A stretch of 40,338 nucleotides of DNA from assembly GCA_004138175.2 (NCBI GenBank), contig RYFE02000045.1, forward strand, positions 1-40,338. Direction: 5' to 3'. This DNA is from Chloroflexales bacterium ZM16-3. GTDB lineage: Bacteria > Chloroflexota > Chloroflexia > Chloroflexales > Chloroflexaceae. The position numbers were made by a program, and so were the translations under genes. Under the pieces are notes generated by a model. That model did not search any database. It saw only the letters and a list, made by a program, of their open reading frames with translations, and was not told where the DNA came from. Every line of letters starts with the position of its first letter. The first letter of the stretch is position 1. This document shows positions 16,410-38,073 of this stretch, piece after piece.

Positions 16410-16772
16410 TCGCCCGTGATAGCGCGGTGCCCCGGCGATAGCACAGGCGTCGGCTGCCTGGCGCTGGCCTGAACCCTGGAATACAACGGTGGCCCTTTCG
16501 CTGCGGTCAATGCGCCCGCAGATGGGATAGCGCGCCGCACATTCCTGTGCACATATCTTCAGGGATAAAATAGTTGTCACATATATCCCCGCGTAGCCTT
16601 GTGAGCAACGCACGCGCATGGTATAGTTCGTGGCAAGAACCTATCCCTATGCCCAGGTTGCACCTATGCCCGCCGACGCGCTCCGGCCATCGCTGATTCC
16701 TCCCATTCCCGCCGACCCCGCTGTCGGGTGTCTCCTCCCCCCGCTCCCACCTACGACGGTATGGTGTCGGCC
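16410..16772 (+). promoter_or_regulatory. Non-coding gap with a good sigma70-type promoter
   Basis: No gene is seen in these 363 bp. A promoter with -35 TTGTGA (16599-16604), 17-bp spacer and -10 TATAGT (16622-16627) points at the large defence cluster. The stretch 16560-16590 is locally AT-rich (ataaaatagttgtcacatat). No clear operator palindrome is visible. Confidence 0.6.
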
Positions 16773-19700: not shown

Positions 19701-19991
19701 GAGATCTGCGGGTCGCCAGCCCCCTCGGCTGCGGTGCAAGCCTCGTTGTTTGATCTGTCCGACGCCCCTACACCAAACACGGTTCTGGCCACAGGCTGGG
19801 CCGCCCTGGACGACCCGGCCCTGCGCTTGGCCGGCTTCGCCGTCGATGTCGCCCAGCCGGCGCGCGCGCGCGGCGAGGCCGACGGCGTGCTGCGGATCTA
19901 CCGCCAGCGCCTGGCCGCCCTCGATGAGCGCGCCGCCCTGCGCCCGCCCGAGGTGGTCGAGCTGGGCGCGCTGATGGTGGTGCCGGTATGA
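16773..19991 (+). CDS. drmD: SNF2-family helicase, DrmD-like
   Basis: 1072 aa from the ATG at 16773; an ATG at 16761 and a GTG at 16728 are alternatives, and none has a strong ribosome-binding site. Helicase motifs in order: DGVGLGKTIQAG (Walker A, about 124-130), VVVIDEAHH (DEAH at 229-232), LLLTATPHDG, LIYTEYTDSQQ, and motif VI QRNGRIDRFGQ from residue 596. This RapA/SNF2 layout with a long C-terminus is that of DrmD, the class 1 DISARM component. Position, preceding a large adenine methylase, supports this. It would use ATP to move along or remodel double-stranded DNA. A short segment at 19408-19422 carries a ggtgtcaggtgt repeat also seen in the methylase gene. Confidence 0.85.
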   Translation: MTTLLPGTEVFARDLRWEVVATESLGAQTLYRLRCLQGDLSGQELDLLSPFEPVAAIRRALRPERAAPLAAWRAYHQAFLLEQALGPDALLVAQPGRLRLEPYQLVPVLRAVRMSRVRLLLADGVGLGKTIQAGLVITELIARRVAHRILIVSPAGPLLEQWRVELAERFGLRMERIDRELLETVRKANELGANPFDSIPLGLVSIDFLKQESVLTQLERASYDVVVIDEAHHCMDLGVAQERADSQRRTLADLLARRSDALLLLTATPHDGNDRSFASLCELLDPSLVDGRGQLRGERYRPFVVRRLKHHITDPATGVPRFRERVVTPCPVIADPARHAAFIALQRGLMAMIAPELRRAFRARQFSDVLAYLALLKRSVSSVAACKETLDVVASRFQRILTEGAESQDSRRQRLRTLREYQRRLDRFGTISAEEEQEQRMLEAEDLAQQLVALDREVRSGARRQAQRASVIDQIEELIGLAAEALSADPKLDQLVAELRAIRAAEPRANVLIYTEYTDSQQAVARAVDRAGLGTVLLMSGEDGATARGEVTERFRSADGLVLVSTDAAAEGLNLQQRCHHLIHLELPFNPNRLEQRNGRIDRFGQTHDPMVRYLYLRATFEERILLRLIAKYERQRARLTFVPNTLGLSAASDLGEARLLEGLMDEDERLFDVAQSRFDFGQPDENAGSDTATRELMEEIDRSLRGFEDAARTNRWLGDLGMNADADQLAAADAARAQGASVSAVDLARFVCDAVRLDGGDVRDMEPTVSELTLPPDWAFGLDDLPGYLPATRQLRVTTDRELTRDGLGNPVGYLGRAHPLVRRALDRVRHRALGGDAQHGQDVRVSAARGPVATPTLLFTFVGRVLSGVGRELERVVGVRCELAGGSGAPIHVTYLPTPEAWLSLAEQKQAIRTTGVYEQHFASWYVQAQAQARAVAEQEFCAGLPTAAFIAERRSELEAERVRQQDWLRARATEICGSPAPSAAVQASLFDLSDAPTPNTVLATGWAALDDPALRLAGFAVDVAQPARARGEADGVLRIYRQRLAALDERAALRPPEVVELGALMVVPV

Positions 19992-24700: not shown

Positions 24701-26433
24701 GATTTGCAAAAAGTCCCACAGAAAATGCCTTAAGGAAAATAATCTTTGAAAGTCTGTCCATTAGGTATTTTATCCATTACTTTAATTTGAAACAGTTATT
24801 CTTGGAGGCTTCTTCTCGCATATCTTTTGTTGTAGTAGTCGGGGATACTTTTTGTAGAGAACCAGAAATACGAGGAGGATATAATCTCATAGAAGCATCG
24901 GATCTTCCAATCGACGGGAATGTTGGTAAATTAATACTTCTTGATAAGGGAAAAATATTACTCAAAAACCAATCACTAAATTCGGTTGAATTCGACGATT
25001 TAATTAATCCATCATTTAACAATCACCCTTATGCGCAGCTGATTATGGAGCAAGAGAACATTATTATAAGTGAAGGCTTACACAGAACCGAGAATAAGGC
25101 ACACATCGCCGATCTTCATTCGGTGGTTAATGGTTGCTTGGATGCAAGGCTACCTGACTTTCAAGAGCAAATACTGCAAGAAGGTTATCTTTGTTTGTAT
25201 GGAGGTCGTAGTATTGATTGTTTTAACCCTTTACCAATAGAAAAATCAGGTAAATGGACACCGCAAGTGGACCTTGTGGTTGATTACAGAAGTTCCAGGC
25301 TGAAATCTCAGTTGTCTGCTATCACGTTTTTTAGATTATCTTGGAGAAATACTGTTGGCCATATTGCAACAAATGAACGTAGCGCTCGTGCATGCATTTT
25401 GCCGTCAGGAGTTGCTGCCGCTGGATCAGTAATGCTTGAGACATCACCGAGTAAGAGGCCTAATAGTACGGCTCTTCTATACTGTTCAATACTCAACTCT
25501 TTTAGTTTTGACTATCAGGTTCGAAAGATTGTGCAAAATAACTTTAATAAGGCGATTTTTGCACAAGTCAGATATCCATCTGATATACGTTCGAAAGATT
25601 TCTTAGCTCATTGTGCCCTTCGCCTCAATGTCGTTCATTCAGGGTTTATTAAGCTTTGGCGGGAGCAGGTGGGCGATGCCTGGCGCGAGGAGCGGGCAGC
25701 GCTCGACTGGCCCGCGCTCAAGGGCGACGACGTGCGCTGGGCAGTGCGCGCCGCGATCGACGCCGTGGTCGCCGAAGCCTACGGGCTAAGCCGCGCGCAG
25801 TACGCCCACGTGCTCTCGACCTTCAGCCACAAGAGCTACCCCAAGGCGCCGGGACTGTGCCTAGCCGCCTTCGACGAACTGCAGTCGCTGGGCCTGGAGG
25901 CGTTCACGCAGAGGCACGACCCCTACTGGGACATCCCGCTCAACGAGGCGCTGCCGGAGCCGGTGATCACGATAGACGCGAAGTGGTTGGCGAAAGACAC
26001 GAATGCGAAAGGGGCGAAGGGCGCGAAGCTCCAGGACTCTGCGCCAGTCTATGCGTCGCCGCAGATGGCCCTTGACCTCGGCGAGGCGACGGCCCCGGCT
26101 CAGCAGGTGATCGACTTCGCGGCGGCTGCGGCGCGGCGGGGGAGGGCCAAGCGGGCGGCGGAGGATACGGCGGGGTATCAGGTGTCAGGTGTCAGCGATC
26201 AGGCCTCACAAGGCGAGGCTGACACCCGAGACCTGAGCCCTGACACCTACGCCCGGCTGAAGGCGCTGCTCGCACAGCAGGCGACGCTGACCAACGGCGA
26301 TGTCCAGGCCGCCCTGGGCATCGACGCGGCCACGGCGCGGGCGCTGCTGCGGCGGCTGGTGGACGAGGGGCTGGCGCGGGTCGAGGGGGAGCGGCGGGGG
26401 ACACGGTATGTGGCGGTCAGGACGGGCGATTGA
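21730..26433 (+). CDS. drmMI: Large adenine-specific DNA methylase, DrmMI/PglX-like
   Basis: 1567 aa from the ATG at 21730. Motif X-like YYTPHTFVRFLV lies near residue 512, motif I DPAMGSGHFLVEA near 550, and the adenine-methylase motif IV NPPW near 883. An N-terminal part (about 80-170) ends in LITNGVQLRLLIS, a pattern of HsdR-N/type IIG nuclease-like domains, but the usual E-x-K is not evident (VELEADLD), so it may be inactive. Residues about 880-1307 (DNA 24,370-25,650), the expected target-recognition region, are AT-rich, against very GC-rich flanks. The C-terminus (about 1500-1567) looks like a winged helix (LTNGDVQAALGIDAATARALL). It would methylate adenine to mark self DNA. Its 3' end overlaps the opposed toxin gene by 17 bp. 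Confidence 0.88.
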   Translation: MPLALLPDVSFSGPALPEPFVRFELEAALAKAGLLPRAAGAEGRALQEDWERYRRRLRELVAAGGPLRVRNHVVDPLVSRLGYARMEPAGEVQTREGREDGGDLLTSADGVARLRVWSVELEADLDAPARRGAAYRYSHVSSARRVLLAAGERLGLITNGVQLRLLISDPARPDSQVIIPIDPLWKQSRALPDSFRLLLALASPAGVLALPALVDLARLQQARVTRELRAQARRAVEGFVQELLDHPENRAAIAAHADREALARALWREGLVLIYRLLFVLKLESSDDPARAFSFASTSLWRNTFSPSVALAPYARKVLDSGAETGRLLEGGLRALFRLFAEGVRVSELKIEPLGALFGAAAMPTLDGMRWGERAVARLLDNLLWTPAKGREGRERVYYGPLDVEDLGRVYEALLELEPGIAGEPMCRLRRQKLEVVLPIAQGEKYRTDPVGTQRAASTAPDNPDDADDDDDTDAEAPARGKKTKVEWIEEIAPGRFYLRVGLGRKSTGSYYTPHTFVRFLVQETLGPQCDERSPQDNPQPGALIRIRVLDPAMGSGHFLVEACRFLGARLYEACRRCDELATEAEAAALRCSDPAERTALEARAQELRARVRDLPDPDDALERYLPSRAAEGAGEGVSRRIAEAICRRLAAVHCLYGVDKNPLAIELAKLSLWIEAHAEGLPLTFLDHRLVVGDSLTGPFVEHLFRFPGSQKPFADDMFASELRARLGHSLAAALVHVADLEASVGVSLADLEHKRGARARLDAALAPFRLLAAAWAGGVMLGKGGCDDSAYESLAHHIATADALPASFPLSASLRAMIARGLGLRALPDAAQILDDALAMLLAPETWGLTPALPYDLAFPEVFYPTGDIAARGGFDVVLGNPPWEKLRVEKRDVVAALDPRFLSGREVAGIGEEHRVIEAIFASNPSARAYEAEIHEIRQVSSVIILRPQLQKGHDAPASILDTYHLFMIKFQSAISERGSIGIVLGGGFAKSPTENALRKIIFESLSIRYFIHYFNLKQLFLEASSRISFVVVVGDTFCREPEIRGGYNLIEASDLPIDGNVGKLILLDKGKILLKNQSLNSVEFDDLINPSFNNHPYAQLIMEQENIIISEGLHRTENKAHIADLHSVVNGCLDARLPDFQEQILQEGYLCLYGGRSIDCFNPLPIEKSGKWTPQVDLVVDYRSSRLKSQLSAITFFRLSWRNTVGHIATNERSARACILPSGVAAAGSVMLETSPSKRPNSTALLYCSILNSFSFDYQVRKIVQNNFNKAIFAQVRYPSDIRSKDFLAHCALRLNVVHSGFIKLWREQVGDAWREERAALDWPALKGDDVRWAVRAAIDAVVAEAYGLSRAQYAHVLSTFSHKSYPKAPGLCLAAFDELQSLGLEAFTQRHDPYWDIPLNEALPEPVITIDAKWLAKDTNAKGAKGAKLQDSAPVYASPQMALDLGEATAPAQQVIDFAAAAARRGRAKRAAEDTAGYQVSGVSDQASQGEADTRDLSPDTYARLKALLAQQATLTNGDVQAALGIDAATARALLRRLVDEGLARVEGERRGTRYVAVRTGD
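23084..23103. repeat. In-frame palindrome inside the methylase gene
   Basis: ggacgcagc (23084-23092) and gctgcgtcc (23095-23103) are perfect complements around a 2-bp centre. It encodes part of a linker (VGTQRAAST) and looks like the intergenic palindrome type seen at 31370-31397 (both begin gtaggg). Confidence 0.75.
26178..26249. repeat. In-frame inverted repeat near the methylase 3' end
   Basis: Two aggtgtca units at left (26180-26195) are mirrored by ctgacacc (26219-26226) and ctgacacct (26240-26248) at right, around gcctc/gaggc. The 72-bp segment keeps the reading frame and encodes the linker between the conserved methylase body and the C-terminal winged-helix-like end. Confidence 0.72.
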
Positions 26434-26755
26434 CCCGCAGCAACAGGCCAGCAAGATCCGGCTGGGCGGTCATCGCAGCGGCGACCCGCGCCGCCTGGCC
26501 GATGAAGTCGGGGTCGTAGGTGCAGACGATGATGCCCGCGTGAGACGGAGACTCGCGATGCAGCCGGATGAAATGCTTGCGGTTGATCGTCACCAGCGCG
26601 CGCCCCTGCGCCACAGCGAAGGCGAGCACCTCCTCGTCGGGCACGGCGCGCCCGGCGTTGCCAGCGTCTCGGCTCGTCAGCACATCATAGCCGAGCCGCC
26701 GCAGCTCCTCGACAACCGGGAGTGGGAAGTTCTCATTGGCGTAGATCGTGGTCAT
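26417..26755 (-). CDS. DUF5615 PIN-like toxin
   Basis: 112 aa. The sequence starts TTIYANENFPLPVVEELRRLGYDV, has SRDAGNAGRAVPDEEVLAFA and then ALVTINRKHFIRLH. These acidic residues (Glu8, Asp33, Asp42 region) and the NxxHF segment fit the DUF5615/Mut7-C-like PIN fold, a predicted RNase. The gene follows the DUF433 gene by 3 bp on the same strand and is opposed to the methylase and DUF262 genes. It is probably the toxin of a two-gene module. Confidence 0.88.
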   Translation of the reverse strand: MTTIYANENFPLPVVEELRRLGYDVLTSRDAGNAGRAVPDEEVLAFAVAQGRALVTINRKHFIRLHRESPSHAGIIVCTYDPDFIGQAARVAAAMTAQPDLAGLLLRVNRPS

Positions 26756-26758
26756 CAG

Positions 26759-27088
26759 CTACGCGGCCTCGTTCTCGGCGATCTGCGCCGCAATCTCCGC
26801 ATGGTGCGAGCGGTCGTAGGCCCAGGCGTTGGCCAGATCCTCGGCGCGCAGGGCAGGGTAGGCCCGCAACAGATCAACCTCGCTCGACCCGAGCTTGCGG
26901 GCCTGGACGAGTACCCACACCGGGATGCGCGTGCGCACGACACACGGCTCCCCGCCGCTCACGCCGGGCGTGGCCTCGATGCCCGGGAAGGCGTCGCCCA
27001 GGTCGCGCACGACCCACTGGAGCAGCTGGGCCTTCTCGGCGCGGCTGATCTGCTGGAGGAGGAGTTCAATATCCTGTATGGCGGTCAT
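26759..27088 (-). CDS. DUF433 antitoxin
   Basis: 109 aa from the ATG complementary to 27086-27088, which has aggtga 5 bp upstream; an in-frame ATG at 27103 is the alternative. The DUF433 core is GVSGGEPCVVRTRIPVWVLVQARKLGSSEVDLLRAYPALRAEDLANAWAY. An N-terminal helix (IQDIELLLQQISRAEKAQLLQWV) precedes it. DUF433 proteins carry a helix-turn-helix and pair with DUF5615 toxins, usually repressing their own promoter. Gene order, antitoxin first, is standard. Confidence 0.9.
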   Translation of the reverse strand: MTAIQDIELLLQQISRAEKAQLLQWVVRDLGDAFPGIEATPGVSGGEPCVVRTRIPVWVLVQARKLGSSEVDLLRAYPALRAEDLANAWAYDRSHHAEIAAQIAENEAA

Positions 27089-27132
27089 GGTGATCACCTG
27101 CATGGATGCGTGAGATTTCGTTTCGTGTAGGC

Positions 27133-27160
27133 ATTATAGCAGCCTCGGAGGCCGCGTGAA
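27133..27160 (-). promoter_or_regulatory. Promoter of the toxin-antitoxin pair
   Basis: On the - strand a perfect -10 TATAAT (complement of 27133-27138) lies 45 bp before the antitoxin start, with a weak -35 TTCACG 16 bp upstream (complement of 27155-27160). The site lies in the short region shared with the DUF262 gene on the other strand, so repression here could affect both. Confidence 0.6.
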
Positions 27161-27230
27161 CGACTCGCAGGTAAACCCAACGCCTGCCCCCTTGTCTCTC
27201 ATATTTGACACCGTCGAAAGGAACATCCCC

Positions 27231-29195
27231 ATGCAGATTAGCACCATCCTTGCACAGATTGACCTTGGCGCGATGGCCCTGCCCGAGTTCCAGCGCGGCT
27301 ATGTCTGGAGCCGCGACCAGGTACGCGAGCTAATGACATCGCTCTATAAGCGGTACCCGGTGGGCGGCCTGCTGATCTGGAAGACTCGCACCGAGGGCGC
27401 TCATGCCCGCGGCGACGGCCAGCTCCAGCCCGGCTACGTCGATCTCATCCTCGACGGTCAGCAGCGCGTCACCTCGCTCTACGGCGTCATCCGGGGTAAG
27501 GCACCGGCCTTCTTCCAGGGGAATAAGGACGCCTTCACCAACCTTTACTTCAATATCGAGACCGAGACCTTCAAGTTCTACAGCCCCAAGGAGATGGACG
27601 GCAACCCGTTTTGGGTGAGCGTCACCGAGCTCATGCAGCCGGCCGGCGTCGGCCCCTTCATCGCCAAGCTCCAGGAGCCATCGGTTGACCCAGCCAAATT
27701 TGGGGCCTACATCACCCGCCTGAACAATGTCGCCTCGATCCAGACGCTCGACTTTCACGTCGATCTGGTCACCGGCGAGGAGAAGACCATCGATATCGTG
27801 GTCGAGATCTTCAACAAGGTGAACAGCGGCGGCACCAAGCTCTCGAAGGGCGACCTGGCTCTCGCCAAAATCTGCGCCAGCTGGCCGGACGCGCGCAAGG
27901 AGCTCCAGAATCGTCTCTCACGCTGGTCAGATGCCGGCTTCTACTTTGACCTCGACTGGCTTCTGCGCAATATCACCACGGTGACAACGGGCCAGGCACT
28001 CTTTACCGGGTTGGCCAACATGCCGGTGCCCACCTTCCAGCAGGGACTCAAGCAGGTCGAGCAACACGTCAATCACCTCCTCAACCTGCTTTCGGCACGC
28101 CTGGGCCTCGATCACCATCGCGTCCTGGGCAGCCGCTACGCCTTCCCAGTCATGACCCGGCTGCTCGCAACGCACGGCGGTGCCCTGAGCAATATCCGCG
28201 ACCAGAACCGGCTGCTCTACTTCTACATCCACGCCTTTCTCTGGGGTCGTTACGCTGGCTCGACGGAGTCGGTCATGAACGCGGACATCAGAGTGATGGA
28301 AGAGGCTGACGATCCGCTTGCCGGGCTGATCACCATCCTCCAGCGATCACGTGGTGATCTTCGTGTCCGCGCTGGCGACTTCGCCGGGAACAGTTTAGGT
28401 GCGCGCTTCTACCCGATGCTTTACCTGCTTACCCGCACGCTTAAGGCCCACGATTGGGGCAACGGCGGGCTGGAGCTGAACGCCCACATGCTCGGCAAGA
28501 CCAGCAGCCTTCAGGTTCACCATATCTTCCCCAAGGCGCAGCTCCGGAAGCGCGGCTACAAGCAGGGCGAGATCAATGCGCTGGCCAACTTCTGCTTCCT
28601 GACTCAGATAGCGAATTTAGAGATCAGCGACCGTGACCCAGCTGAGTACTTCGCGACGGTTGAGGCGGCCTACCCCGGTGTCCTGGCCTCGCAGTGGGTG
28701 CCAATGGATCGTGAGCTCTGGCACATCGACCGCTTCCGCGACTTCCTGGCCACCCGGCGTGAACTGCTGGCCCAGGCGGCAAACAGCTTCCTCGATAGCC
28801 TGATCACGGGAGCCGCAAGCAGTGAGCCGGTGTCCGAGCCAGCCCTGGAGCGGGTGCATGCCCTGGTGCTCACTATCCCTGGCGGCGCAGATGGTGAGGA
28901 GTTGGAGCAGATCCGCACGTGTAACGATTGGGTTGAAGCCCAGGGCCTGCCGCGCGGCGAGGAGCTGTATGAGCTGTCCCACCCGGAGAGCGGCGCGCCC
29001 CTGGCGGTGATCGACCTGGCCTGGCCGCGCGGCATCCAGGAGGGCCTGAGCCAGCCGATCGCCCTGCTGCTGAACGAGAGTGAAGAGGTCGAGGAGGCTG
29101 TCAACCAGGCCGGCTACACGTTCTTCACCGACCCAGTTCACCTCTGCGCCTACATCGAGCGCACGGTGCTGGCGGTCGCTGAGACAGGAGACTAG
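27231..29195 (+). CDS. DUF262-HNH protein (GmrSD-like)
   Basis: 654 aa from the ATG at 27231 (aaagga before it). A GTG at 27156 with ggagg would add 25 residues. The DUF262 ParB-like nucleotide-binding site is shown by LPEFQRGYVW (17-26) and DGQQRVTSL (75-83), then KVNSGGTKLSKGDLAL. A DUF1524-like HNH motif, VHHIFPKAQLRKRGYKQGE, is at about 429-447 with the following NFCFLT. This is the layout of GmrSD type IV restriction enzymes, which cut glucosylated-hydroxymethyl DNA using NTP hydrolysis. A C-terminal extension after about 560 (EELYELSHPESG) is additional. It precedes the helicase gene by 3 bp. Confidence 0.9.
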   Translation: MQISTILAQIDLGAMALPEFQRGYVWSRDQVRELMTSLYKRYPVGGLLIWKTRTEGAHARGDGQLQPGYVDLILDGQQRVTSLYGVIRGKAPAFFQGNKDAFTNLYFNIETETFKFYSPKEMDGNPFWVSVTELMQPAGVGPFIAKLQEPSVDPAKFGAYITRLNNVASIQTLDFHVDLVTGEEKTIDIVVEIFNKVNSGGTKLSKGDLALAKICASWPDARKELQNRLSRWSDAGFYFDLDWLLRNITTVTTGQALFTGLANMPVPTFQQGLKQVEQHVNHLLNLLSARLGLDHHRVLGSRYAFPVMTRLLATHGGALSNIRDQNRLLYFYIHAFLWGRYAGSTESVMNADIRVMEEADDPLAGLITILQRSRGDLRVRAGDFAGNSLGARFYPMLYLLTRTLKAHDWGNGGLELNAHMLGKTSSLQVHHIFPKAQLRKRGYKQGEINALANFCFLTQIANLEISDRDPAEYFATVEAAYPGVLASQWVPMDRELWHIDRFRDFLATRRELLAQAANSFLDSLITGAASSEPVSEPALERVHALVLTIPGGADGEELEQIRTCNDWVEAQGLPRGEELYELSHPESGAPLAVIDLAWPRGIQEGLSQPIALLLNESEEVEEAVNQAGYTFFTDPVHLCAYIERTVLAVAETGD

Positions 29196-29198
29196 CCG

Positions 29199-31373
29199 AT
29201 GGCCAAGTGGAACCTGATCGCCCCGCCGACCTTCCTCAACGAGCTGCTCGGCCTGCCGGCGGAGGTGAGCCGGCGGGTGACCCAGAAGGTCAAGGTGATC
29301 GAGCGCGACCCGATCTCGGCCCAGGGCGACGCGAAGAAGATTGGCAACCATAAGCCGCCAATCTACCGGGCGCGGATTGGGGACTACCGGCTCTTCTACA
29401 GCTTCGGCGACGGCTGGGTGAAGCTGCTCTGCGTGCGTAAGCGCGACGGCCGCACGTACCAGGACGCGCTGCCCGATGTTGGCGCGCCCGAGACGGCGCC
29501 GCCCGCGAGCCTGGTCGCCACCGAGCCGCCGCCCGCGAGCCCTGCGGGGCAGGCCGCCGAGGAGCCAGCGGTGTACGCGGCCGCCGACGAGCCCCTGACC
29601 CCCGACGACGAGGCCGATGCGCGCCTGCTGGCCCCCGAGCCGGCGGCATCATCATTGGAGCCGCGCCCGCTGCCGGTCGTGATCAGCGCCGAGTTGCTGC
29701 GCCAGTGGCAGATTCCTGCAAACCACTGGCCGGCCCTGCTTCAGTCTACGACCGAGGATGATCTGCTGGCGGCCGGCCTGCCGGTGTTGCTCTTCGACCG
29801 GGTCTGCGACATCCTCTTCCCGCGCAGCATCGCCGAGATCGCGCGCCAGCCTGAGTATGTGCTGCCCGAGCCCGAGGATCTGGATCGCTACATCGAGGGC
29901 GAGCTGACCGCCTTCCTACTCAGGCTGGACACCGACCAGCAGCGCATCCTCGATACCGCCCTCGACGGGCCAGCCCTGGTGAAGGGCGGGCCGGGCACCG
30001 GCAAGTCGGTGCTGGCGATCTACCGCAGCGCGCGGCTGGTGGAGGCCGGGCGCACGCCGGTGCTCTTCACCACCTACACCAACGCCCTGGTCAGCTACTC
30101 CGAGCAGCTGCTGGAGCGGCTGCTCGGCGCGCCCCCGGCTGATCGCGGCGTCGAGGTCAACACGGTTGACTCGGTGATCATGCGCCGCTACACCCAGGCC
30201 TACGGGCGGCCGCGCTTCGCCACCGACGGGCAGCTTGAGGACGCCCTGGAGCGCGCCCTGGATAGCGCGGACATCCCGGCGGCCAATGTCTTCGACCGCA
30301 AGGTGCGCATGGAGGTGCTGCGTAAGCTCGGGCTAGACTACCTGCTCGAAGAGCTCTGCGATGTGATCGACGCCCGGGGCATCGCCAGCCGCGAGGACTA
30401 TCTGGCCCTGGAGCGGCGCGGGCGCGGGGTGCCGCTGCGCGCAAATGTGCGCGCGGCGCTCTGGGCGGTCTACGCGGCATGGGCCACCGACCTCGACCGC
30501 CAGGGGCTGACGACCTGGGATCGCATGCGCCGCCAGGCTCTGGCCCTGGCCGAGGCGGACAGCGCGCGGCCCTACCAGGCGCTCGTGATCGACGAGGCCC
30601 AGGATCTCTCGCCGGTGGCGCTGCGCTTCCTGCTGGCCTCGGTTGCCTCGCCCCAGGGCATCTACCTCACCGCCGACGCCTCGCAGTCGCTCTACCAGCG
30701 CGGCTTCAGCTGGAAGGCCATCCACAGCGACCTGAGCGTGCGCGGGCGCAGCGTGCTGCTGCGACGCAACTACCGCAACACCGCCGAGATCACCGCCGCC
30801 TGCGCGGCCATCCTCCAGGGCAGCGGCGCGGGCGACGACGAGAGCGTGGCCCAGGAGTCGGCGGCCCACCACGGCGGCGCGCCCACGCTGCGGTTCGCCC
30901 GTGGCGGCGACGGCGAGGCCACGGCGATCCGTGATTTCTTCATAGCGGCGGCCCACGAGCTGCGCCTGCCCATCCACGCCGGGGCGGTGCTCTGCCACAG
31001 CAAGCAGCTCGCCCAACAGATCGCGGGTCGTCTGGCCCGCATGGGGACACCTGCCGAATTCATGGACAGCCGCGAGATCGATCTGCGCAAGCCGGTGGTC
31101 AAGGTACTCACCCTGCACGCCGCCAAGGGACTTGAGTTCCCCATGGTGGCAATCGCCCGGCTGGAGGCGGGCAGCCTGCCCCACACCCTCAGCCAGCTGC
31201 CCGAGGAGGAGCAGGCCGTGGTGCGCGACCAGCAGCGCCGGCTGTTCTACGTCGGCTGCTCGCGGGCCATGCGCGCCCTGCTTGTCTGCGCCGCCGCCGA
31301 TAGCCCCTCGATGTTTTTGGAGGGTCTGGACGCGCCGCTGTGGCGACGGGTAGAGGAACATCGGGGCGCGTAG
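29199..31373 (+). CDS. RelE/ParE-like domain fused to a UvrD-family helicase
   Basis: 724 aa, starting 3 bp after the DUF262 gene. Residues 1-90 look like a RelE/ParE toxin fold (VKVIERDPISAQGDAKKIGN, YRARIGDYRLFYSFGDGWVKLLCV). A Pro/Ala-rich linker follows. The helicase has GGPGTGKS (263-270), VIDEAQDLSP (DEAQD at 465-469), VKVLTLHAAKGLEF and RRLFYVGCSRAMRALLV, all superfamily 1A motifs. It would unwind or translocate on DNA; the RelE-like part could be a DNA- or RNA-binding or cleaving domain. The lack of a nearby RelB argues against a free toxin. Start choice follows the tight spacing with the previous gene. Confidence 0.88.
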   Translation: MAKWNLIAPPTFLNELLGLPAEVSRRVTQKVKVIERDPISAQGDAKKIGNHKPPIYRARIGDYRLFYSFGDGWVKLLCVRKRDGRTYQDALPDVGAPETAPPASLVATEPPPASPAGQAAEEPAVYAAADEPLTPDDEADARLLAPEPAASSLEPRPLPVVISAELLRQWQIPANHWPALLQSTTEDDLLAAGLPVLLFDRVCDILFPRSIAEIARQPEYVLPEPEDLDRYIEGELTAFLLRLDTDQQRILDTALDGPALVKGGPGTGKSVLAIYRSARLVEAGRTPVLFTTYTNALVSYSEQLLERLLGAPPADRGVEVNTVDSVIMRRYTQAYGRPRFATDGQLEDALERALDSADIPAANVFDRKVRMEVLRKLGLDYLLEELCDVIDARGIASREDYLALERRGRGVPLRANVRAALWAVYAAWATDLDRQGLTTWDRMRRQALALAEADSARPYQALVIDEAQDLSPVALRFLLASVASPQGIYLTADASQSLYQRGFSWKAIHSDLSVRGRSVLLRRNYRNTAEITAACAAILQGSGAGDDESVAQESAAHHGGAPTLRFARGGDGEATAIRDFFIAAAHELRLPIHAGAVLCHSKQLAQQIAGRLARMGTPAEFMDSREIDLRKPVVKVLTLHAAKGLEFPMVAIARLEAGSLPHTLSQLPEEEQAVVRDQQRRLFYVGCSRAMRALLVCAAADSPSMFLEGLDAPLWRRVEEHRGA

Positions 31374-31426: not shown

Positions 31427-34400
31427 ATGAGCATCCCGCTGCGCGTCGCCGATGTCCTGGCCCAGGGCGAGCCCGCCCTGCGTGCCCTCAGCCCCTCGAT
31501 CGCCCAGCGGGTCTTCCAGCTCGACTGGGGCGGCGTCCCCAGCATCGCCCCGGCCCAGCTCGACGACCTCTTCTCCGCCATCCCTGCGGCCTGGGGCTTC
31601 GCTGAGCTGGGCGAAGTGATGGATGTCGCCACGATGAGCGACATGCTCGCTGAGCAGCTCATGATCTGGGTGGAGCGTAGGAGTCGGGAGTCAGGAGTCG
31701 GGAGTCAGGGTGTGGCGACACACCCTGCCGAGCTACCTCCCAACCCCCAACCCCCAACCCCCAACCCCCAGCCCCCAACCCCCAGCAGAATCCACCCCAT
31801 CCTCGCCCTTGAGCAGGTGACGGACGAGTACCAGCGCTACCTGCAGAGCGAGTTCCGCGCCAAGGACCCGACCCTCAAGGCCGCGCTGGACGCGGCGTTG
31901 GACGAGCCGCGATTCTTGGCCCAGGATCCGTTCTACCAGGCCCACCGGCCCTTCCGCGCCGGTGAGGCATGGGACGCCCTTGGCCTCGACCCGCGCCTCG
32001 CCCGGGTGATGCGCGCGCGCTCGGGCGGCGACCGCGCCTACCAGCACCAGTCGGCGGCGATCCAGACCCTGCTCTCCCCCGCACCGTCGCCAGTCGTCGT
32101 CACCACCGGCACCGGCAGCGGCAAGTCCGAGGCATTCCTGCTTCCCGTGATCCAGAACGCCATCGCCGACGCTGCGGCGTTCAACCGCAAGCCGGGGCTG
32201 ACCGCCATCCTGATCTACCCGATGAACGCCCTGGCCAACGACCAGATGGAGCGCATCACCCGCTACCTGGAGGAGTCGGGCTGGGCCGGGGCGGTCGAGG
32301 TCGCCCAGTACGATCGCAGCACCAATCAGCAGCGCCGACACGATCTGCGCGAGCGCCCGCCGCACATCCTGCTGACCAACTACATGATGCTGGAGTACCT
32401 GCTGGTGCGCCCGGCCGACCGCGACGACATCTTCGCCAACCACCGCTGCCGCTTTCTGGTGCTCGACGAGGTGCATACCTATCGCGGCACCCTGGGCACC
32501 AACATCGCGCTGCTGGTGCGCCGCCTGCGCGCCCACCTGGCCCGCGCCCGCCAGAACTGGCTCGCCAGCCCGCCCGACGAGCTGCGCGAGCGACGTTACC
32601 CGACGCTCACCCCGATCGGCACCTCGGCCACCATCAAGAGCATCGCCGACGAGGCGATCCGCCCCGAGGAGCGCCGCCGCCTGCGCGACGCGGCGGTGCA
32701 GGAGTTCTTCGGCAAGCTCACTGGCGCGGTCCCCGCGCGCATCCAGGTGATCAGCGAGGAGCTGGAGGAGATCGCCATCCCGACGGAGGCGCGCTACCCC
32801 GCCGATCCCCCGCAGGTTGGCCCGGTGATCACCCATGACCCTGCGCACGTGCGGCAGGTGCTCTGCGCTCTGGCCGGGGTGGCAGACGACACGCCGCTGC
32901 CTGATGCCGCCCGCCACGCCCGACTGCTCTGGGATCTGAACCGCTGGTTGATCCGCCAGCCACTCTCGGTGGAGCAGATCGTCGCCCGCGTGCGCGCCGA
33001 GGTGCCGGGCCGTGCGGATGCCCACGCGGATGTCGTGCGCGCCGAGGTCGAGGCGGCTCTGGTCGTCGGCTCCGCGCTCCCCGACGGCACGCCGGGCGCC
33101 CTGCGCCTGCGCGCCCACCGCCTGATCCGCGGCGGCTGGCAGTTCCACCGCTGCGTCAACCCGGAGTGTGGCCGGCTTTACCCCATGGGCGAGACCTCCT
33201 GCGCCACCTGTAGCTACCCAACCGCCCCGCTCTACCTCTGCCGCAGCTGCGGCGCCCACTACCTGCGCTTCGTCGGCGACGACCCGGACGACCCGACCGC
33301 TGGCCCGCTGCGCCCGAGCGCCCAGCGCGCCAGCGGCCACGAGTGGATGCTCTACGACCCCGCTCGCTTCGCAGACGGCGTTGGCGCGACCGACGATGAA
33401 GACGTGGAGGAGGACGCTCCCACGGCGGCGCGCGGCAACCGCAAGCGGCCCCAGCAGCTCAAGCGGCGGAAGGTCGAGCAGGGCTCCTTCGACCCGCGCA
33501 CCCTCTGGTTCAGCCGGGAGGCCGGCGACTTCGCGCTGCCGGTCACGCTCTCGCCCGCGCGCACCCTCTGCCTCTGCTGCGGCGCGACCCTGGGCAGCCG
33601 CAATGTGATCACCCCGGTGGCCCTCGGCACCTCCGCCGCCGTCAAGGTCATGGCCGAGGGCATGGTCACGGCGCTCGCCGAGGCTCACCAGGGTGACGAC
33701 ACCCACGACGGCAAGGAGCGCCTGCTGATCTTCAGCGATAGCCGCCAGGACGCCGCCCACCAGGCCCGCTTCATCACCTTCGCCAGCCGCTACGACCGCA
33801 TGCGCCGGCGGCTGGTGGAGATCCTCACTGCGCGCGGCCCGGTCGCGCTCCAGGTTGCGGTCGAGGCCCTCGGCCAGCGCGCTATCGACGCGCACGACAC
33901 CCCGCTGATGCCGCGTGGCACCTTCATCACCGGCGAGGAGCTGGAGCGGCTGCGCGCCTACGAGGAAGCACCGCTGCTCGATGACATCGCCCTGAATGCG
34001 GGCTATCGCGCCACCGCGATCAACCTGGGGCTCGTGACGGTCAGCTATGATCGGCTCGACACCTACGCCGCGCGCGATGGCGACACGCTGCGTGCCGCGC
34101 TTGGCCTGCGGAGCGCCGAGGAGCTGGCGTACCTCTGCCGCTGCGTGCTGGACGAGATCCGCGTGCGCGGCTGTCTCTCGCGCCCGATGCTGCGCTACCA
34201 CCCGCAGCACCCGAGCTGTCCGGCGTACGTGCGCGCCGCCGAGTGGGAGCGCCGGGTGAAGCAGCCCGGCGGCTACGCCCTCGGGCGCGATGGTCGCCCG
34301 ACGGCCAGCCTCGACCGCACCGATGTGCCGGCCGGGGTGCGCCTGAACAACCCCTGGCGGCGACCGAAGGCCGGTGGACGTGGCCCCAGCCTGGAGCGCA

Positions 34401-37084
34401 TCCTGGAGCACATCTTGGTCGGCTTTCACAGCACCACCCAGCCCGCCGCGCCCGACATGGTCGCGCTGTTGGGCTTCTTGCAGGATGGCAGCTTTCTGAT
34501 CGCCGCCGATCTGTTCGGCGCCCGTGATCGCGTGAATCTGCTCCAGGTCAACGCCGAGGCGATCCGGCTACGCCTGGTGGCCGACAGCGAGCGGCTGCGC
34601 TGCGGGGTCTGCGCGCTCCCGATGGCCGGCGCGCGAGTTGGCCAGCCCTGCCCGCGCTGCCACGGTCGGCTCATTGCCTGGCCGGCGGCGGAGGTCGATG
34701 CGAACCGCACGGTGCGGCGCATCCGGGCGGCGGAGGTCATCCCGCTGGTGGCCGCCGAGCACACCGCCCAGGTGCCAAACAGCGACCGCGCCGTGATTGA
34801 GGCCAACTTCAAGGCGCGCCCGGCGGTGTCGCCGCTCAACCTGCTGGCCTGCTCGCCGACCCTGGAGATGGGCATCGATGTGGGCGGCCTTGACGCGGTC
34901 ATCCTGCGCAACGTGCCGCCCCGGCCCGACAACTACGCCCAGCGCGGCGGGCGTGCGGGAAGGCGCACGCGGGTCGGCCTGGTGCTCGGCTACGCCCGCA
35001 ACACCCCCCACGACCAGTACTTCTACGACAAGCCCACCGAGATGATCGCCGGCGAGGTGCCGGCCCCCGCGCTGGCCCTGGGAAACCGCGACGTCATCCT
35101 ACGCCACCTCAGCGCGATTGCCTTCGGCGCGGCCGAGCCGGGCCTAGCCGGCAAGATGCTGGCCTACATCAACCCGCAGGGCGTGATCGACCAGGTGGCC
35201 GTCGATGCGCTGATCGCCGGCGTGCGCGCCCAGGTCGGCCACGCGGTCGAGCTGGCCGAGGCCGCCTGGGGCACCGATATCCTGCCGGCGGCGGGGCTCA
35301 GCGCGGAGAACCTGCGTGCCAGCCTGGAGCAACTGCCTGCGCGGACGCAGGATGTCTTCCACCGCATGGCCCGCCAGGTGGTCGAGCTGCGCCAGGCCAT
35401 CGAGCGTTTCAACGTCGATCTCCAGCGTGGCCGCGACGTCATCCGCGCAGCGGATCTGATCAACCGCCTGCTCGGGGCCGCCGGGCGCGCGGGCGACGCC
35501 GACGACCGCTCCTCGGGCTACCCACTGCGCCGCTTCGCCGAGTTCGGCCTGCTGCCCGGCTACGAGTTCCCCAGTGAGCCGGCCGCCCTACGCCTGCACG
35601 GTGACCTGCACGAGGACGACCCGATCAGCGTCGCGCGGCGATTCGGCATCGCGCAGTTCCAGCCCTCGGCCACGGTCTACGCGCGCGGGGCGCGCTGGAA
35701 GGTGCTCGGCCTCGACACCGCCTCACCCTGGAACCCGCGCGGCGACGGGCCGAGCTGGCTGTATCGCCAGTGCCGTCGCTGCGACCTGCGCTACGACGCC
35801 GATGAGCCGGCCTGCCCGCGCTGCGGTGCCGCCGAGCCGGGGCTCACCCTGCCTGCCGCTGAGTACGCCGGCTTCCTGGCCGTGCGCGACGAGAGCCCCA
35901 TTCTCGACGAGGAAGACCGCTACGCGGTGAGCAACCGCGTGGCCGGCTACCCGCAATGGGGTGCCGGCGTGGTTGGCCTCTGGTCGGCCGGGCCGGGCTG
36001 GGGGCTACGCCTGAGCGCCGAGGAGGAGGTGCGCTGGGTGAATGAAGGCCCGCCGCCGGGGCCGGCCGAGCGCGCGGGGCGGGCCTACCTGACGGAGGAT
36101 GCCGCCGGCTATCGGATCTGCCCGAGCTGCGGGCGCATCCTCCAGCCGCCCGCACCGACCGAGACCGCCAAGGGCGGCCGCCGCCAAGCCCGGCCCGCCG
36201 CCAGCGAGCGCGACGCCTTCGGCCACGGACCGGGCTGCGCCGAGGCCGGTCGCCCGCCCCGCCCGGTGGCACTGGTGACGGCGACGAAAGCTGAGGTGCT
36301 GCGCCTCCTCGCACCCGTGCCCGACCGCATCGACGATGCCGACCTCCAGCGCTGGGGGCTGAGCCTGGGCTACGCCCTACGCCTGGGCATGCGCCACCGC
36401 TACATGCTCGACGGCCCGGAGATCGAGTTTCTGCGGGAGGGGCCGTGGCCGGTGACGCAGGACGGGCGCACCTTCCGTCAGATGGCGCTCAGCTTCATCG
36501 ACCCAAGCGTGGGCGGGAGCGGCTATCTGCGCCGGATCGCCGCAGAGCTGCACATGGTCGCCCTGCGCGCCATCGAACACCTCGACCACCCCCACTGCAC
36601 CAGCGCCTGCTACCGCTGCCTGAAGTCCTACGAGAACCAGCGCTACCACGACCAGCTGAGCTGGCCACGGATCATCGCCGATCTGCACGCCCTGGCCGCC
36701 GCCGCGCCGGTCGTGCGCCCGCTGGAGCACGGCGATATCGACGACCCCGGCCCCTGGCTGGATGCCTACGCCGCCGGCGTCGGCTCACCGCTGGAGCTGC
36801 GTTTCCTGCGCCTGTTCGAGGCCCACGGGTTTCGCCCGCAGAAGCAGGTGCCGGTGAGCCCGGACGGCGGCCCAGCGATCTCGGTGGCCGACTTCGCCGT
36901 GCCCGAACGACGGCTGGCGATCTATGTAGACGGGGCGGCCTTCCACAGCGGGACCAACCGCGCCCGCGACACCCACCTGCGCGACCAGCTGCGGCGGGGC
37001 AGCCAGGCATGGACGGTGGTCGAGCTGCGGGCGGCCGACCTCCGACGGGGCCAGGCGCTGGTGGAGGAGCTGCGGGCGATCTAG
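31427..37084 (+). CDS. drmA: Giant helicase-DUF1998 protein (DrmA+DrmB-like fusion) with C-terminal nuclease-like domain
   Basis: 1885 aa with gaggag before the ATG. Helicase domain 1: TGTGSGKS (227-234), LIYPMNALANDQ, LDEVH (346-350), GTSATIKS. A zinc cluster follows at about 576-612 (CVNPECG, SCATC, CRSCG). Domain 2: CSPTLEMGIDVGGLDAVILR near 1143 and RGGRAGRR near 1170. The DUF1998 signature CTSACYRCLKSYENQRYH has Cys at 1724, 1728 and 1731. The last 100 residues (LELRFLRLFEAHGF, VADFAVPERRLAIYVDGAAFH) resemble Vsr/DUF559-type nucleases, though a Tyr stands where the acidic residue of IEVDG is usual. In DISARM, DrmA and DrmB are separate; here they appear fused. An MrfA-family helicase is the alternative reading. 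Confidence 0.82.
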   Translation: MSIPLRVADVLAQGEPALRALSPSIAQRVFQLDWGGVPSIAPAQLDDLFSAIPAAWGFAELGEVMDVATMSDMLAEQLMIWVERRSRESGVGSQGVATHPAELPPNPQPPTPNPQPPTPSRIHPILALEQVTDEYQRYLQSEFRAKDPTLKAALDAALDEPRFLAQDPFYQAHRPFRAGEAWDALGLDPRLARVMRARSGGDRAYQHQSAAIQTLLSPAPSPVVVTTGTGSGKSEAFLLPVIQNAIADAAAFNRKPGLTAILIYPMNALANDQMERITRYLEESGWAGAVEVAQYDRSTNQQRRHDLRERPPHILLTNYMMLEYLLVRPADRDDIFANHRCRFLVLDEVHTYRGTLGTNIALLVRRLRAHLARARQNWLASPPDELRERRYPTLTPIGTSATIKSIADEAIRPEERRRLRDAAVQEFFGKLTGAVPARIQVISEELEEIAIPTEARYPADPPQVGPVITHDPAHVRQVLCALAGVADDTPLPDAARHARLLWDLNRWLIRQPLSVEQIVARVRAEVPGRADAHADVVRAEVEAALVVGSALPDGTPGALRLRAHRLIRGGWQFHRCVNPECGRLYPMGETSCATCSYPTAPLYLCRSCGAHYLRFVGDDPDDPTAGPLRPSAQRASGHEWMLYDPARFADGVGATDDEDVEEDAPTAARGNRKRPQQLKRRKVEQGSFDPRTLWFSREAGDFALPVTLSPARTLCLCCGATLGSRNVITPVALGTSAAVKVMAEGMVTALAEAHQGDDTHDGKERLLIFSDSRQDAAHQARFITFASRYDRMRRRLVEILTARGPVALQVAVEALGQRAIDAHDTPLMPRGTFITGEELERLRAYEEAPLLDDIALNAGYRATAINLGLVTVSYDRLDTYAARDGDTLRAALGLRSAEELAYLCRCVLDEIRVRGCLSRPMLRYHPQHPSCPAYVRAAEWERRVKQPGGYALGRDGRPTASLDRTDVPAGVRLNNPWRRPKAGGRGPSLERILEHILVGFHSTTQPAAPDMVALLGFLQDGSFLIAADLFGARDRVNLLQVNAEAIRLRLVADSERLRCGVCALPMAGARVGQPCPRCHGRLIAWPAAEVDANRTVRRIRAAEVIPLVAAEHTAQVPNSDRAVIEANFKARPAVSPLNLLACSPTLEMGIDVGGLDAVILRNVPPRPDNYAQRGGRAGRRTRVGLVLGYARNTPHDQYFYDKPTEMIAGEVPAPALALGNRDVILRHLSAIAFGAAEPGLAGKMLAYINPQGVIDQVAVDALIAGVRAQVGHAVELAEAAWGTDILPAAGLSAENLRASLEQLPARTQDVFHRMARQVVELRQAIERFNVDLQRGRDVIRAADLINRLLGAAGRAGDADDRSSGYPLRRFAEFGLLPGYEFPSEPAALRLHGDLHEDDPISVARRFGIAQFQPSATVYARGARWKVLGLDTASPWNPRGDGPSWLYRQCRRCDLRYDADEPACPRCGAAEPGLTLPAAEYAGFLAVRDESPILDEEDRYAVSNRVAGYPQWGAGVVGLWSAGPGWGLRLSAEEEVRWVNEGPPPGPAERAGRAYLTEDAAGYRICPSCGRILQPPAPTETAKGGRRQARPAASERDAFGHGPGCAEAGRPPRPVALVTATKAEVLRLLAPVPDRIDDADLQRWGLSLGYALRLGMRHRYMLDGPEIEFLREGPWPVTQDGRTFRQMALSFIDPSVGGSGYLRRIAAELHMVALRAIEHLDHPHCTSACYRCLKSYENQRYHDQLSWPRIIADLHALAAAAPVVRPLEHGDIDDPGPWLDAYAAGVGSPLELRFLRLFEAHGFRPQKQVPVSPDGGPAISVADFAVPERRLAIYVDGAAFHSGTNRARDTHLRDQLRRGSQAWTVVELRAADLRRGQALVEELRAI
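31679..31785. repeat. Compound repeat in the linker of the giant helicase gene
   Basis: Direct copies of ggagtcgggagtca (31680-31708) are followed by a 7-bp stem with GCGA loop (gggtgtg 31708-31714; cacaccc 31719-31725). Then come seven or so ccccaa units (31737-31785) that encode a PPNPQPPTPNPQPPTP linker. The frame is kept through the whole segment. Confidence 0.8.
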
Positions 37085-37104: not shown

Positions 37105-38073
37105 GTGGCCAAACAGCTCTACCAACTCTCTGACCTCCAGGATGCCTTCGCCGCGCGCATTCGGGCGAAGGTTCAGGATCGCCGCGCCGACGCCCAGGAG
37201 AACGTTGAGGATGTCCCGCTGCTCGGCTGGCTGCTCAAGCCACTCGCCGGCCTGGCCTTTGACGCCCGCGAGAGTCGCAACACGAGCCGTGGCGAGCGCG
37301 GTGAGGAGAGTGTCCTTGGCACCCTGCTGCGCTGGCTGCCCGATCCCTGGGTCGTCTTTCACAACGTGGTCATCGAGCCACAGCCCGACGACTTCGCTCA
37401 GATCGACCTGCTCATTGTCGGAACCGTAGGGGTCTTTCTGGTGGAGACGAAGGCCTGGCGCGGCTCGTACAAGGGCTACCGCGATAGCTGGCAGCAGCGC
37501 GAGGGAAATGCCTGGACGAAGGTGTCGAGCCCGACGGCCCAGGTGCAGCGCCACGCCCGCCTGCTGGCCTGGTGGCTCGAGCAGCAGCGATCCCTGGTGC
37601 TCCCGCCTGATACGCGGTGCCTGATGACTCCGCTCGTCGTGTTCACGCAGGCACAGTGGCTTCACACAGCTCAGTGTTCGGTTGAAGTCTTTGATGGCGT
37701 GCGACCGCTGCTCCAGCACATCAAGGCGTATCCCGATGGGCTGCTGGCCAACAATCAGGTTGAGGCGATCTGCGATCTGATCATCCGCTCGCCGACCCCA
37801 GTGGCGCTTCCAACGCCTCCGCCTGAAGTGCAATCGCGCCCAGGCCCACAGTATCAGCTACCTCCTACAACCGTTCGATCTGCCTCTACACACCAGTCCT
37901 CAATCACGCCACCGGCACCGGCACCGAGCGCATCTCCGCTGTGCCGCCGCTGCGGGGTGCCCATGGTGCTGCGCACCGCGCGCCAGGGCGCTAACGCCGG
38001 CAATCAGTTCTATGGCTGCCCGAACTTTCCGCGCTGCCGTGAGGTGCAGCCGATAGGAGAGGCAAAAGCATAG
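37105..38073 (+). CDS. NERD-domain nuclease with topoisomerase-type zinc finger
   Basis: 322 aa with a GTG start and aggag at 37094-37098. The NERD core has VVFHNVVIEPQPDDFAQIDLL and VGVFLVETKAWRG, giving the PD-(D/E)XK residues Asp101, Glu114 and Lys116. After a Pro/Ser-rich linker, the C-terminus is a zf-C4_Topoisom finger (CRRCGVPMVLRTARQG, FYGCPNFPRCREVQPI). It would cut or nick DNA. It is the last gene of the cluster, 20 bp after the giant helicase, where a DISARM locus would carry drmC. Confidence 0.9.
   Translation: MAKQLYQLSDLQDAFAARIRAKVQDRRADAQENVEDVPLLGWLLKPLAGLAFDARESRNTSRGERGEESVLGTLLRWLPDPWVVFHNVVIEPQPDDFAQIDLLIVGTVGVFLVETKAWRGSYKGYRDSWQQREGNAWTKVSSPTAQVQRHARLLAWWLEQQRSLVLPPDTRCLMTPLVVFTQAQWLHTAQCSVEVFDGVRPLLQHIKAYPDGLLANNQVEAICDLIIRSPTPVALPTPPPEVQSRPGPQYQLPPTTVRSASTHQSSITPPAPAPSASPLCRRCGVPMVLRTARQGANAGNQFYGCPNFPRCREVQPIGEAKA

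Follow-up and report, generated by a model that had tools for sequence, protein, structure and literature searches.

The 40,338-nucleotide stretch of Chloroflexales bacterium ZM16-3 analysed here (the window) carries eight co-directional genes between positions 16728 and 38073. They encode, in this order, an SNF2 helicase, a protein designated u555, a methyltransferase, a second small protein designated u276, a DUF262/GmrSD_N protein, a RelE-UvrD protein, a YprA-family protein and a NERD protein. The YprA-family protein is the subject of this study; its gene, 31427–37084 on the forward strand, is a single open frame that starts with ATG and codes for 1885 amino acids (aa). Pfam recognises DEAD, Helicase_C and MZB domains in it, the last being the DUF1998 zinc domain (Table 1). 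In the insert between the two RecA halves, the zinc-type cysteine pairs occupy columns that are invariant in a 25-row alignment (A3). A first-pass annotation of the same DNA had likewise noticed two helicase domains, a zinc cluster and DUF1998. At the C-terminus, the Pfam model REase_MTES_1575 aligns with residues 1800–1873 at 21.1 bits, below its curated cut-off of 38.2.

The first-pass annotation had interpreted the protein as a DrmA-DrmB-like fusion with a Vsr/DUF559-like end. PADLOC ranks DruE first (356.7 bits), followed by BrxH-like, SngC and DpdJ models, while the best DrmA profile reaches 53 bits and matches most strongly in the generic RecA2 motif region. When the zinc/DUF1998 half (the canopy, 645 aa) was searched alone, six models matched at E 1e-4, every one of them DruE; no DrmB model matched at this threshold. 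Among PDB sequences, phmmer matched 9tu7 (DEAD/DEAH box helicase, 161 bits), 9wae (helicase, 113 bits) and MrfA (6znp, 87 bits) ahead of generic DEAD helicases, and DrmA was not among the matches. An AlphaFold2 model of the motor half (residues 120–1240; predicted local distance difference test (pLDDT) 86.2, predicted template modelling score 0.83) is closest to MrfA (Foldseek E 6.7e-13; VIA Z 27.2 over 427 residues at 24% identity). DrmA was not among the best 50 matches listed for these fold searches, which does not in itself exclude it. The model also has a helical stretch after RecA1 (model residues 353–431), the place where a BrxA-like helical domain is an ARMADA trait.

Because of the DruE profiles, the phmmer matches and the predicted MrfA-like fold, we assign the protein to the YprA/MrfA-type motors of the Druantia/ARMADA branch, nearer to Druantia than to DISARM. 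We reject a DrmA-DrmB fusion because of the profile scores and the motor fold, and of the earlier interpretation the Vsr-type C-terminus stands. The outcome is close to what the first-pass annotation had named as evidence against itself, an MrfA-type helicase without special DrmA similarity, with the ARMADA/Druantia branch as an addition. The domain assignments support a single chain in which an SF2 motor is joined to a zinc/DUF1998 canopy and, at the C-terminus, to a nuclease module of Vsr type. The earlier idea of one chain combining translocation, DUF1998 function and a DNA-binding or cutting module thus holds for the domains, and catalysis is a prediction.

Relation to ARMADA and spread of the family

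ARMADA systems are defined in the accessible text of Bell et al. 2025 (PMC12458937) by a helicase resembling BrxHII, a PglX-like methyltransferase and a YprA helicase whose C-terminal Vsr domain is predicted to be active. A RelE-GajB helicase is added in type II, and defence in E. coli requires all four genes. We took the island of E. coli ATCC 8739 as an anchor and compared its four ARMADA II proteins by blastp with the proteins of the window. All four were matched: ArmA by the SNF2 helicase (29% over 650 aa, E 1.8e-59), ArmB by the methyltransferase (E 2e-17), ArmD by the helicase part of the RelE-UvrD protein (E 6e-36) and ArmC by the 1885-aa protein (residues 1074–1873 to ArmC 964–1804, E 3e-40; residues 124–403, E 5e-36). 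The ARMADA components found here by sequence and model are the SNF2 protein (ArmA), the PglX-like methyltransferase (ArmB), the YprA helicase with DUF1998 and the predicted C-terminal Vsr-type domain. E. coli DruH had no blastp match at 1e-3 among the 12 proteins of the window tried.

Relatives were collected by a scan of genome contigs, of which the best 80 matches were kept and which is not a census. It gave at least 79 loci; best-segment identity was 48% or more in 35 loci, from at least ten phyla, and 32% or less in 44. A FastTree phylogeny was built from 69 rows. YprA rows below 1300 aa are absent from it, as are ten longer YprA proteins removed by a motif filter (L058, L085, L086, L087, L088, L089, L091, L092, L110 and L114). 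In this tree, 27 rows form a tight clade with 100% local support and a long stem. Many clade loci, among them those of Calothrix, Holophagaceae, Planctomycetes, Myxococcota and a Pseudanabaena plasmid (57% identity), have an SNF2 gene, a methyltransferase gene or both upstream of the YprA gene. A RelE-UvrD gene precedes YprA in ZM16-3, in G003 of the same family, in Chloroploca Khr17, in the Pseudanabaena plasmid, in two Calothrix and in one further genome of the class of a Calothrix; G003 repeats the order methyltransferase-u276-DUF262-RelE/UvrD-YprA.

From these comparisons, 31427–37084 very probably encodes an ArmC-like YprA-family helicase-nuclease of an ARMADA-type anti-phage operon, with a predicted activity and the mechanism proposed below. 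Several observations weigh against this assignment. The ArmC alignment covers the two motor halves and the C-terminus and leaves the middle unmatched, and the margin over E. coli DruE (114 and 112 bits, where ArmC has 154 and 140) is not wide. The gene order is A-B-D-C, not the strict A-B-C-D of ARMADA II with RelE-GajB last (PMC12458937, accessible text), and in G002, of the same family, the DUF262 gene stands directly before YprA without RelE-UvrD between. E. coli ArmC, like DruE, sits in the 69-row tree on a long branch of uncertain placement, separated from the clade. Given these long-branch anchors, the system may be of type I, of type II or of a third type.

Further copies and arrangements were seen alongside. 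The ZM16-3 genome has two more YprA-SNF2-methyltransferase operons, in the order C-A-B, at G000:C46 (L045) and G000:C77 (L046), and the C-termini of their YprA proteins do not match the Vsr profile. The Pseudanabaena plasmid also encodes, at L037:25672-35737 and convergently to its ARMADA operon, a DruE-like helicase of 2082 aa with large neighbours, a layout that recalls the Druantia-ARMADA pairing of E. coli. Candidatus Chloroploca sp. Khr17 (L038, L040) has a methyltransferase broken into several frames, a YprA gene with an interruption in its N-terminal part and, on another contig, a further YprA copy that is partly deleted; decay and assembly error are both possible.

The C-terminal Vsr-type domain

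The C-terminal segment contains the motif VADF...IYVDGAAFH, with D1822, F1823, Y1833, D1835, G1836 and H1840, exactly as read in the first-pass annotation, which took the lack of an acidic residue before VDG for an altered active site. The annotation had also suggested a search for the same C-terminal extension. Among 86 candidate C-termini, the clade profile recognised 67 at E 1e-3, the source protein included (26 clade rows and 41 more distant rows), and these were read; the other 19 did not match. The residue before xDG is Tyr in 42 of the 67, Phe in 23, Leu in one and Gln in one; it is acidic in none. E. coli ArmC, a weak profile match (12.3 bits), reads AIFLDGFAFH, with Phe at that position. 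Vsr 1odg, PDFVVDEYRCVIFTHGCFWHH, aligns very weakly with the clade profile aDFavperrlaiYvDGaafht (3.8 bits, whole-chain E 4.1), placing the Phe of its own VIFTHG at the questioned position; the RD of the profile falls on the RD of Vsr, also very weakly (6.5 bits, chain E 4.1). IEVDG, with Glu before VDG, occurs in a DUF559 protein encoded next to the Pseudanabaena homologue. The position of the supposed missing acid is therefore Phe in Vsr, Tyr in the 1885-aa protein and Glu in that DUF559 protein. Since the aligned relatives carry an aromatic residue there and Vsr does too, we dropped an altered or lost active site as a description of the 1885-aa protein; by these alignments, the questioned site is the ordinary, conserved arrangement of its own family and resembles that of Vsr.

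The motif is not a chance resemblance, because its residues are kept in the clade: E1790, Q1807, D1822, F1823, Y1833, D1835, H1840, R1847 and D1848 are the same in all 26 rows, and G1836 has one change, to Ser. In the 41 distant rows, D1822, D1835 and G1836 are kept throughout, Tyr or Phe occupies position 1833 in 39, E1790 is present in all 30 rows that align there and D1848 in 33 of 38. Vsr uses an Asp and an aromatic-x-His segment for metal binding and catalysis. The conservation of the active-site residues suggests a working nuclease site.

EDxHD and Vsr have been named as one nuclease type (PMC12350094, accessible text). A model of residues 1739–1885, built on an alignment of 20 clade sequences (pLDDT 86.7), is predicted to have this fold, in answer to the structure prediction proposed in the first-pass annotation. 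VIA places I-Bth0305I (Z 10.7) near the top of its list, together with two Vsr structures, 1cw0 (Z 9.2 over 102 residues at 24% identity) and 1vsr (Z 8.5, 26%), and an endonuclease-like protein from N. gonorrhoeae (Z 8.9); the Vsr/EDxHD matches (Z 10.7, 9.2 and 8.5) extend over most of the domain, across 90–102 residues. Other results count against the assignment. Foldseek gave the model no match below E 0.001, the best being a T. gondii mitoribosomal protein (E 0.016), which we take to be a RAP protein, and PvuRts1I had E 0.055. The VIA Z of 8–9 for Vsr lies only modestly above the stated background of the tool, and the clade profile (A2) finds Vsr among PDB sequences at E 4.1 only. H1840 appears dispensable across the wider family, because the 41 distant rows have His at this position in 30, Asp in eight, Asn in two and Glu in one. 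The eight rows with Asp belong to sister lineages (L051, L112, L113, L115, L120, L124, L125 and L128) and mostly keep the other site residues.

Alternatively, the C-terminal domain may be a dead nuclease that is retained to bind DNA or for a structural role; Bell et al. predict the Vsr domains of Druantia I and II to be inactive (PMC12458937, accessible text). The absence of an acidic residue at the (D/E)xK position fits a dead domain, as do the best Foldseek matches, which are mitoribosomal proteins and not nucleases. Yet E1790, D1822, D1835, H1840, R1847 and D1848 do not vary in the clade, Vsr itself is aromatic at that position (in the weak alignment), and the ARMADA Vsr domain is predicted to be active in the same text. 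We regard a dead nuclease as unlikely; residue conservation points to a working site in the fused Vsr-type domain.

The operon and the variable slot before the YprA gene

Table 1. Positions in the window of the operon genes and of the predicted domains of the 1885-aa protein.
Feature	Position	Strand	Description and basis
SNF2/RapA-type helicase, ArmA/DrmD/BrxHII-like	16728..19991	+	1087 aa; NCBIfam DrmD 407 bits (cut-off 610), PADLOC DrmD 384.6 bits
u555, unrecognised family	20020..21687	+	555 aa; between SNF2 and methyltransferase genes; weak PADLOC (21.1 bits) and NCBIfam (12.5 bits) matches only
Eco57I/PglX/DrmMI-like N6-adenine methyltransferase, ArmB-like	21730..26433	+	1567 aa; DPAMGSG at 551, NPPW at 883; Pfam, PADLOC
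u276	26300..27130	+	276 aa; overlaps methyltransferase end (start may be further in); tblastn
DUF262/GmrSD_N protein (PADLOC HEC-05 type)	27156..29195	+	slot gene; Pfam GmrSD_N 93.7 bits, HEC-05 155.6 bits
UvrD/GajB-like helicase, ArmD-like, with N-terminal extension	29199..31373	+	last slot gene; ends 53 bp before YprA; Pfam, PADLOC, blastp
ArmC-like YprA-family helicase-nuclease (probable)	31427..37084	+	1885 aa; Pfam, PADLOC, blastp, tree
RecA1 (DEAD)	32042..32563	+	residues 206–379; DEVH at 347–350; Pfam, motif
Zinc-cluster insert between RecA halves	33149..33586	+	residues ~575–720; invariant Cys columns of A3, sequence reading
RecA2 (Helicase_C)	34751..34966	+	residues 1109–1180; Pfam; motor model aligns with MrfA, Z 27.2
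MZB/DUF1998 zinc domain	36368..36622	+	residues 1648–1732; Pfam
Vsr-type (EDxHD-like) nuclease domain (predicted)	36734..37081	+	residues ~1770–1885; pLDDT 86.7 model, VIA, conservation
NERD nuclease-like protein with topoisomerase-type zinc ribbon	37105..38073	+	20 bp after YprA; Pfam NERD 81 bits

Among the neighbours of the YprA gene, u555 has no Pfam match at E 0.1 and no tblastn relative in the loci searched; at the same SNF2-methyltransferase junction, the Pseudanabaena operon has an annotated Phd/VapC pair. u276 has no family match in the Pfam and PADLOC scans and was found by tblastn at 56–69% in the G016, G002 and G003 loci, only same-family genomes among the loci searched. The N-terminal extension of the RelE-UvrD protein is RelE/ParE-like in the Pseudanabaena homologue (ParE_toxin 5e-6), and Pfam gives no ParE_toxin match in the ZM16-3 copy. 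The NERD protein had no tblastn match in the other loci searched, none of which supports it as a part of the system.

The gap between the methyltransferase and YprA genes is a variable slot with swapped toxin and defence genes. Junctions were tabulated for loci with both genes on one strand in the order B-C; L045, L046, L119 and L126 (other order) and L072 (methyltransferase uncalled) are absent from the tabulation, and for L123 the span of the SNF2 gene was assigned manually. At the 32 loci where both junctions could be measured, a gap longer than 600 bp occurs between methyltransferase and YprA in 22 and between SNF2 and methyltransferase in three: 19 loci have it at the former junction alone, three at both and none at the latter alone (binomial p 3.8e-6, a guide value only, as the rows are related). 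In the E. coli anchor, neither junction has a gap. Inside the clade, 14 of 16 measurable loci have the long gap before YprA, and outside it 20 of 29.

Slot contents were listed for 31 clade loci, counting frames on the YprA strand only; in 14 of these the methyltransferase was unrecognised in the stretch, mostly because of a contig end. A recognised toxin or defence gene occupies the slot in 22 loci, as a raw count uncorrected for defence-island background (Table 2); two loci (L063, L081) have no room for a slot gene, and seven (L061, L062, L064, L067, L075, L076, L101) are unannotated or ambiguous. In 12 of the 22, the recognised gene ends 60 bp or less from the YprA start or overlaps it. In L055:1-6277, three effectors (HEPN-RES, DUF262 and SIR2-long pAgo) are stacked before YprA, spaced by tens of bases or less.

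Table 2. Genes recognised in the slot, by locus.
Slot gene	Clade	Loci	Remarks
RelE-UvrD	inside	ZM16-3, L037, L052, L053, L054
DUF262	inside	ZM16-3, L055, L066, L080
SIR2-pAgo	inside	L055, L056	L055 1290 bits; L056 fragment by clustering
HEPN-RES or RES	inside	L055, L059, L069
Schlafen AlbA_2-HATPase	inside	L060, L070, L078, L080, L073	L073 by clustering
M78 peptidase	inside	L068, L072, L098	L068 with MqsA-like HTH gene; L072, L098 by clustering
OLD-like AAA_21	inside	L083, L069, L082	L069, L082 by clustering
ATPase_2-DUF234	inside	L084
AbiEi-AbiEii	inside	L057
Hachiman HamAB pair	outside	L130:5619-9951	HamA 225 bits, HamB 1196 bits; between methyltransferase and YprA
Class II pAgo	outside	L103
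NB-ARC-TPR	outside	L110
M78-HTH genes	outside	L099, L106
AAA_15	outside	L124
AAA_5 (McrB-like) and DUF2357-PDDEXK	outside	L043:5772-9879	same-genus genome, sister-lineage operon
Schlafen	outside	L085, L093

For 21 of the 27 clade rows, the slot was labelled by hand with the nearest recognised gene (not the nearest frame in L059 and L078). The ten labels, one of them 'none', require at least 11 changes on the clade tree, against a minimum possible of 9 and a shuffled mean of 14.3; hence the contents have been replaced repeatedly yet stay fixed for a while within lineages. We found no earlier report of a slot at one ARMADA junction in the open-licence literature searched, and a word find in the accessible text of PMC12458937 and PMC12839542 returned no mention of it. 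The idea of backup effectors is not new, since similar genes (GmrSD, Schlafen-HATPase-wHTH, OLD ATPase and HEPN) are described as auxiliary or backup effectors inside core defence loci of BREX (Rakesh and Krishnan 2026, PMC12839542, accessible text). That survey covers BREX and BREX-related systems, and ARMADA, DISARM and DUF1998 are absent from its main text as far as accessible; the accessible main text of a RelE/ParE paper (PMC11980606) contains no UvrD, helicase, ARMADA or DISARM.

It is a substantial possibility, if short of a probable one, that the slot genes are independent defence systems gathered in a defence-island hot spot, with no working link to the ARMADA core. Known stand-alone systems occur in the slot (HamAB in L130, SIR2-pAgo in L055), the hand-given labels change often on the clade tree, opposite-strand frames also lie in the gap of L037, L054 and L075, and such genes are common in defence islands anyway. 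Independence fits less well with the confinement of long gaps to one junction (19 loci against none, with the p value again a guide for related rows), with the closeness of the slot gene to the YprA start in 12 of 22 clade loci and with the essential RelE-GajB gene of E. coli ARMADA II (PMC12458937, accessible text). More tentatively, and with considerable doubt, we suggest that the fourth ARMADA component is interchangeable, and that a socket before the helicase-nuclease gene would take the infection signal of the core to whichever effector is there. ArmD (RelE-UvrD) would then be just one of the nine kinds seen in the clade, to which sister lineages add Hachiman, class II pAgo and NB-ARC.

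Proposed mechanism and comparison with known systems

In the mechanism that we propose for the ARMADA-type operon, ArmB would methylate host DNA and so mark self. The SNF2 protein and the predicted MrfA-like motor of ArmC would engage and translocate invading, unmodified or replicating phage DNA, by analogy with MrfA, DruE and ARMADA II; the related DruE of Druantia III loads on 3'-tailed DNA and is called a helicase-nuclease effector (PMC13192584, accessible text). The zinc/DUF1998 canopy, if it behaves as in MrfA, would gate the motor and couple its steps to the fused Vsr domain, which may nick or cut DNA via E1790, D1822, H1840 and D1848, as its predicted fold and aligned residues suggest. 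The genes between ArmB and ArmC, here DUF262 and RelE-UvrD, may act as a second line of toxin or nuclease effectors, carried in a slot whose contents can be exchanged.

With this protein, the ARMADA helicase-nucleases gain a well-defined clade of wide distribution, and the named active-site residues are mutation targets for deciding whether the fused Vsr domain cuts DNA. If the genes in the slot require the core, ARMADA would serve as a platform on which a single sensing machine switches on effectors of very different kinds, and uncharacterised genes in the slot would be promising places to find new antiviral toxins.

The DISARM-like system of the first-pass annotation, with DrmA and DrmB fused and DrmC replaced, is highly improbable: its SNF2 and methyltransferase neighbours score best with DISARM class 1 models (DrmD, DrmMI) and are relatives shared with that system (DrmD, DrmMI, DrmA, DrmB, DrmC), but a single 1885-aa chain stands in place of separate DrmA and DrmB genes, DrmA similarity is weak (53 bits against 357 for DruE), no DrmB model fits the canopy at E 1e-4, and Pfam scans of the eight operon proteins found no PLD domain, PLD-named PADLOC and NCBIfam models matching, among the matches listed, only the helicase part of the SNF2 protein. 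TALON was considered because the host belongs to Chloroflexota and a NERD gene, a TALON trait beside TBP and TPR-CSD genes in the operon, is present; we reject it because the C-terminus is of the Vsr type and not an inactivated RNase H.

Druantia DruE provides the best PADLOC profile and shares the fused motor, zinc modules and DUF1998, whereas the operon here has no DruH-like partner by blastp and carries a Vsr-type domain where type III has its PLD pair. MrfA (YprA of Bacillus subtilis) shares the predicted motor fold and the MZB domain; its solved chains are ~750 aa and lack the large inserts and C-terminal nuclease domain of the 1885-aa protein. With Vsr and I-Bth0305I (EDxHD-Vsr type), the C-terminal domain shares the predicted fold, the order D then aromatic-x-D/H-G...H and the conserved RD; it differs from Vsr in being fused to a helicase and in having Asp in place of the His of the THG motif.

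ARMADA I, compared by description only, resembles the present family in its wide phyletic spread and in having A-B before C, as in many archaeal and cyanobacterial members, and is not described with RelE-GajB in the accessible text (PMC12458937). Each of the four proteins of ARMADA II (ArmABCD of E. coli ATCC 8739 and NCTC 12900; same text) has a homologue in the operon, and both systems have a YprA helicase whose C-terminal domain is of Vsr type. The operon departs from ARMADA II in the order A-B-D-C, in the extra u555, u276, DUF262 and NERD genes and in its ArmC-like protein, which is 25–33% identical to ArmC in the matched parts and has 1885 aa against 2113. The operon is thus a known kind of system, ARMADA, with new features: its gene order, its added genes and an effector slot.

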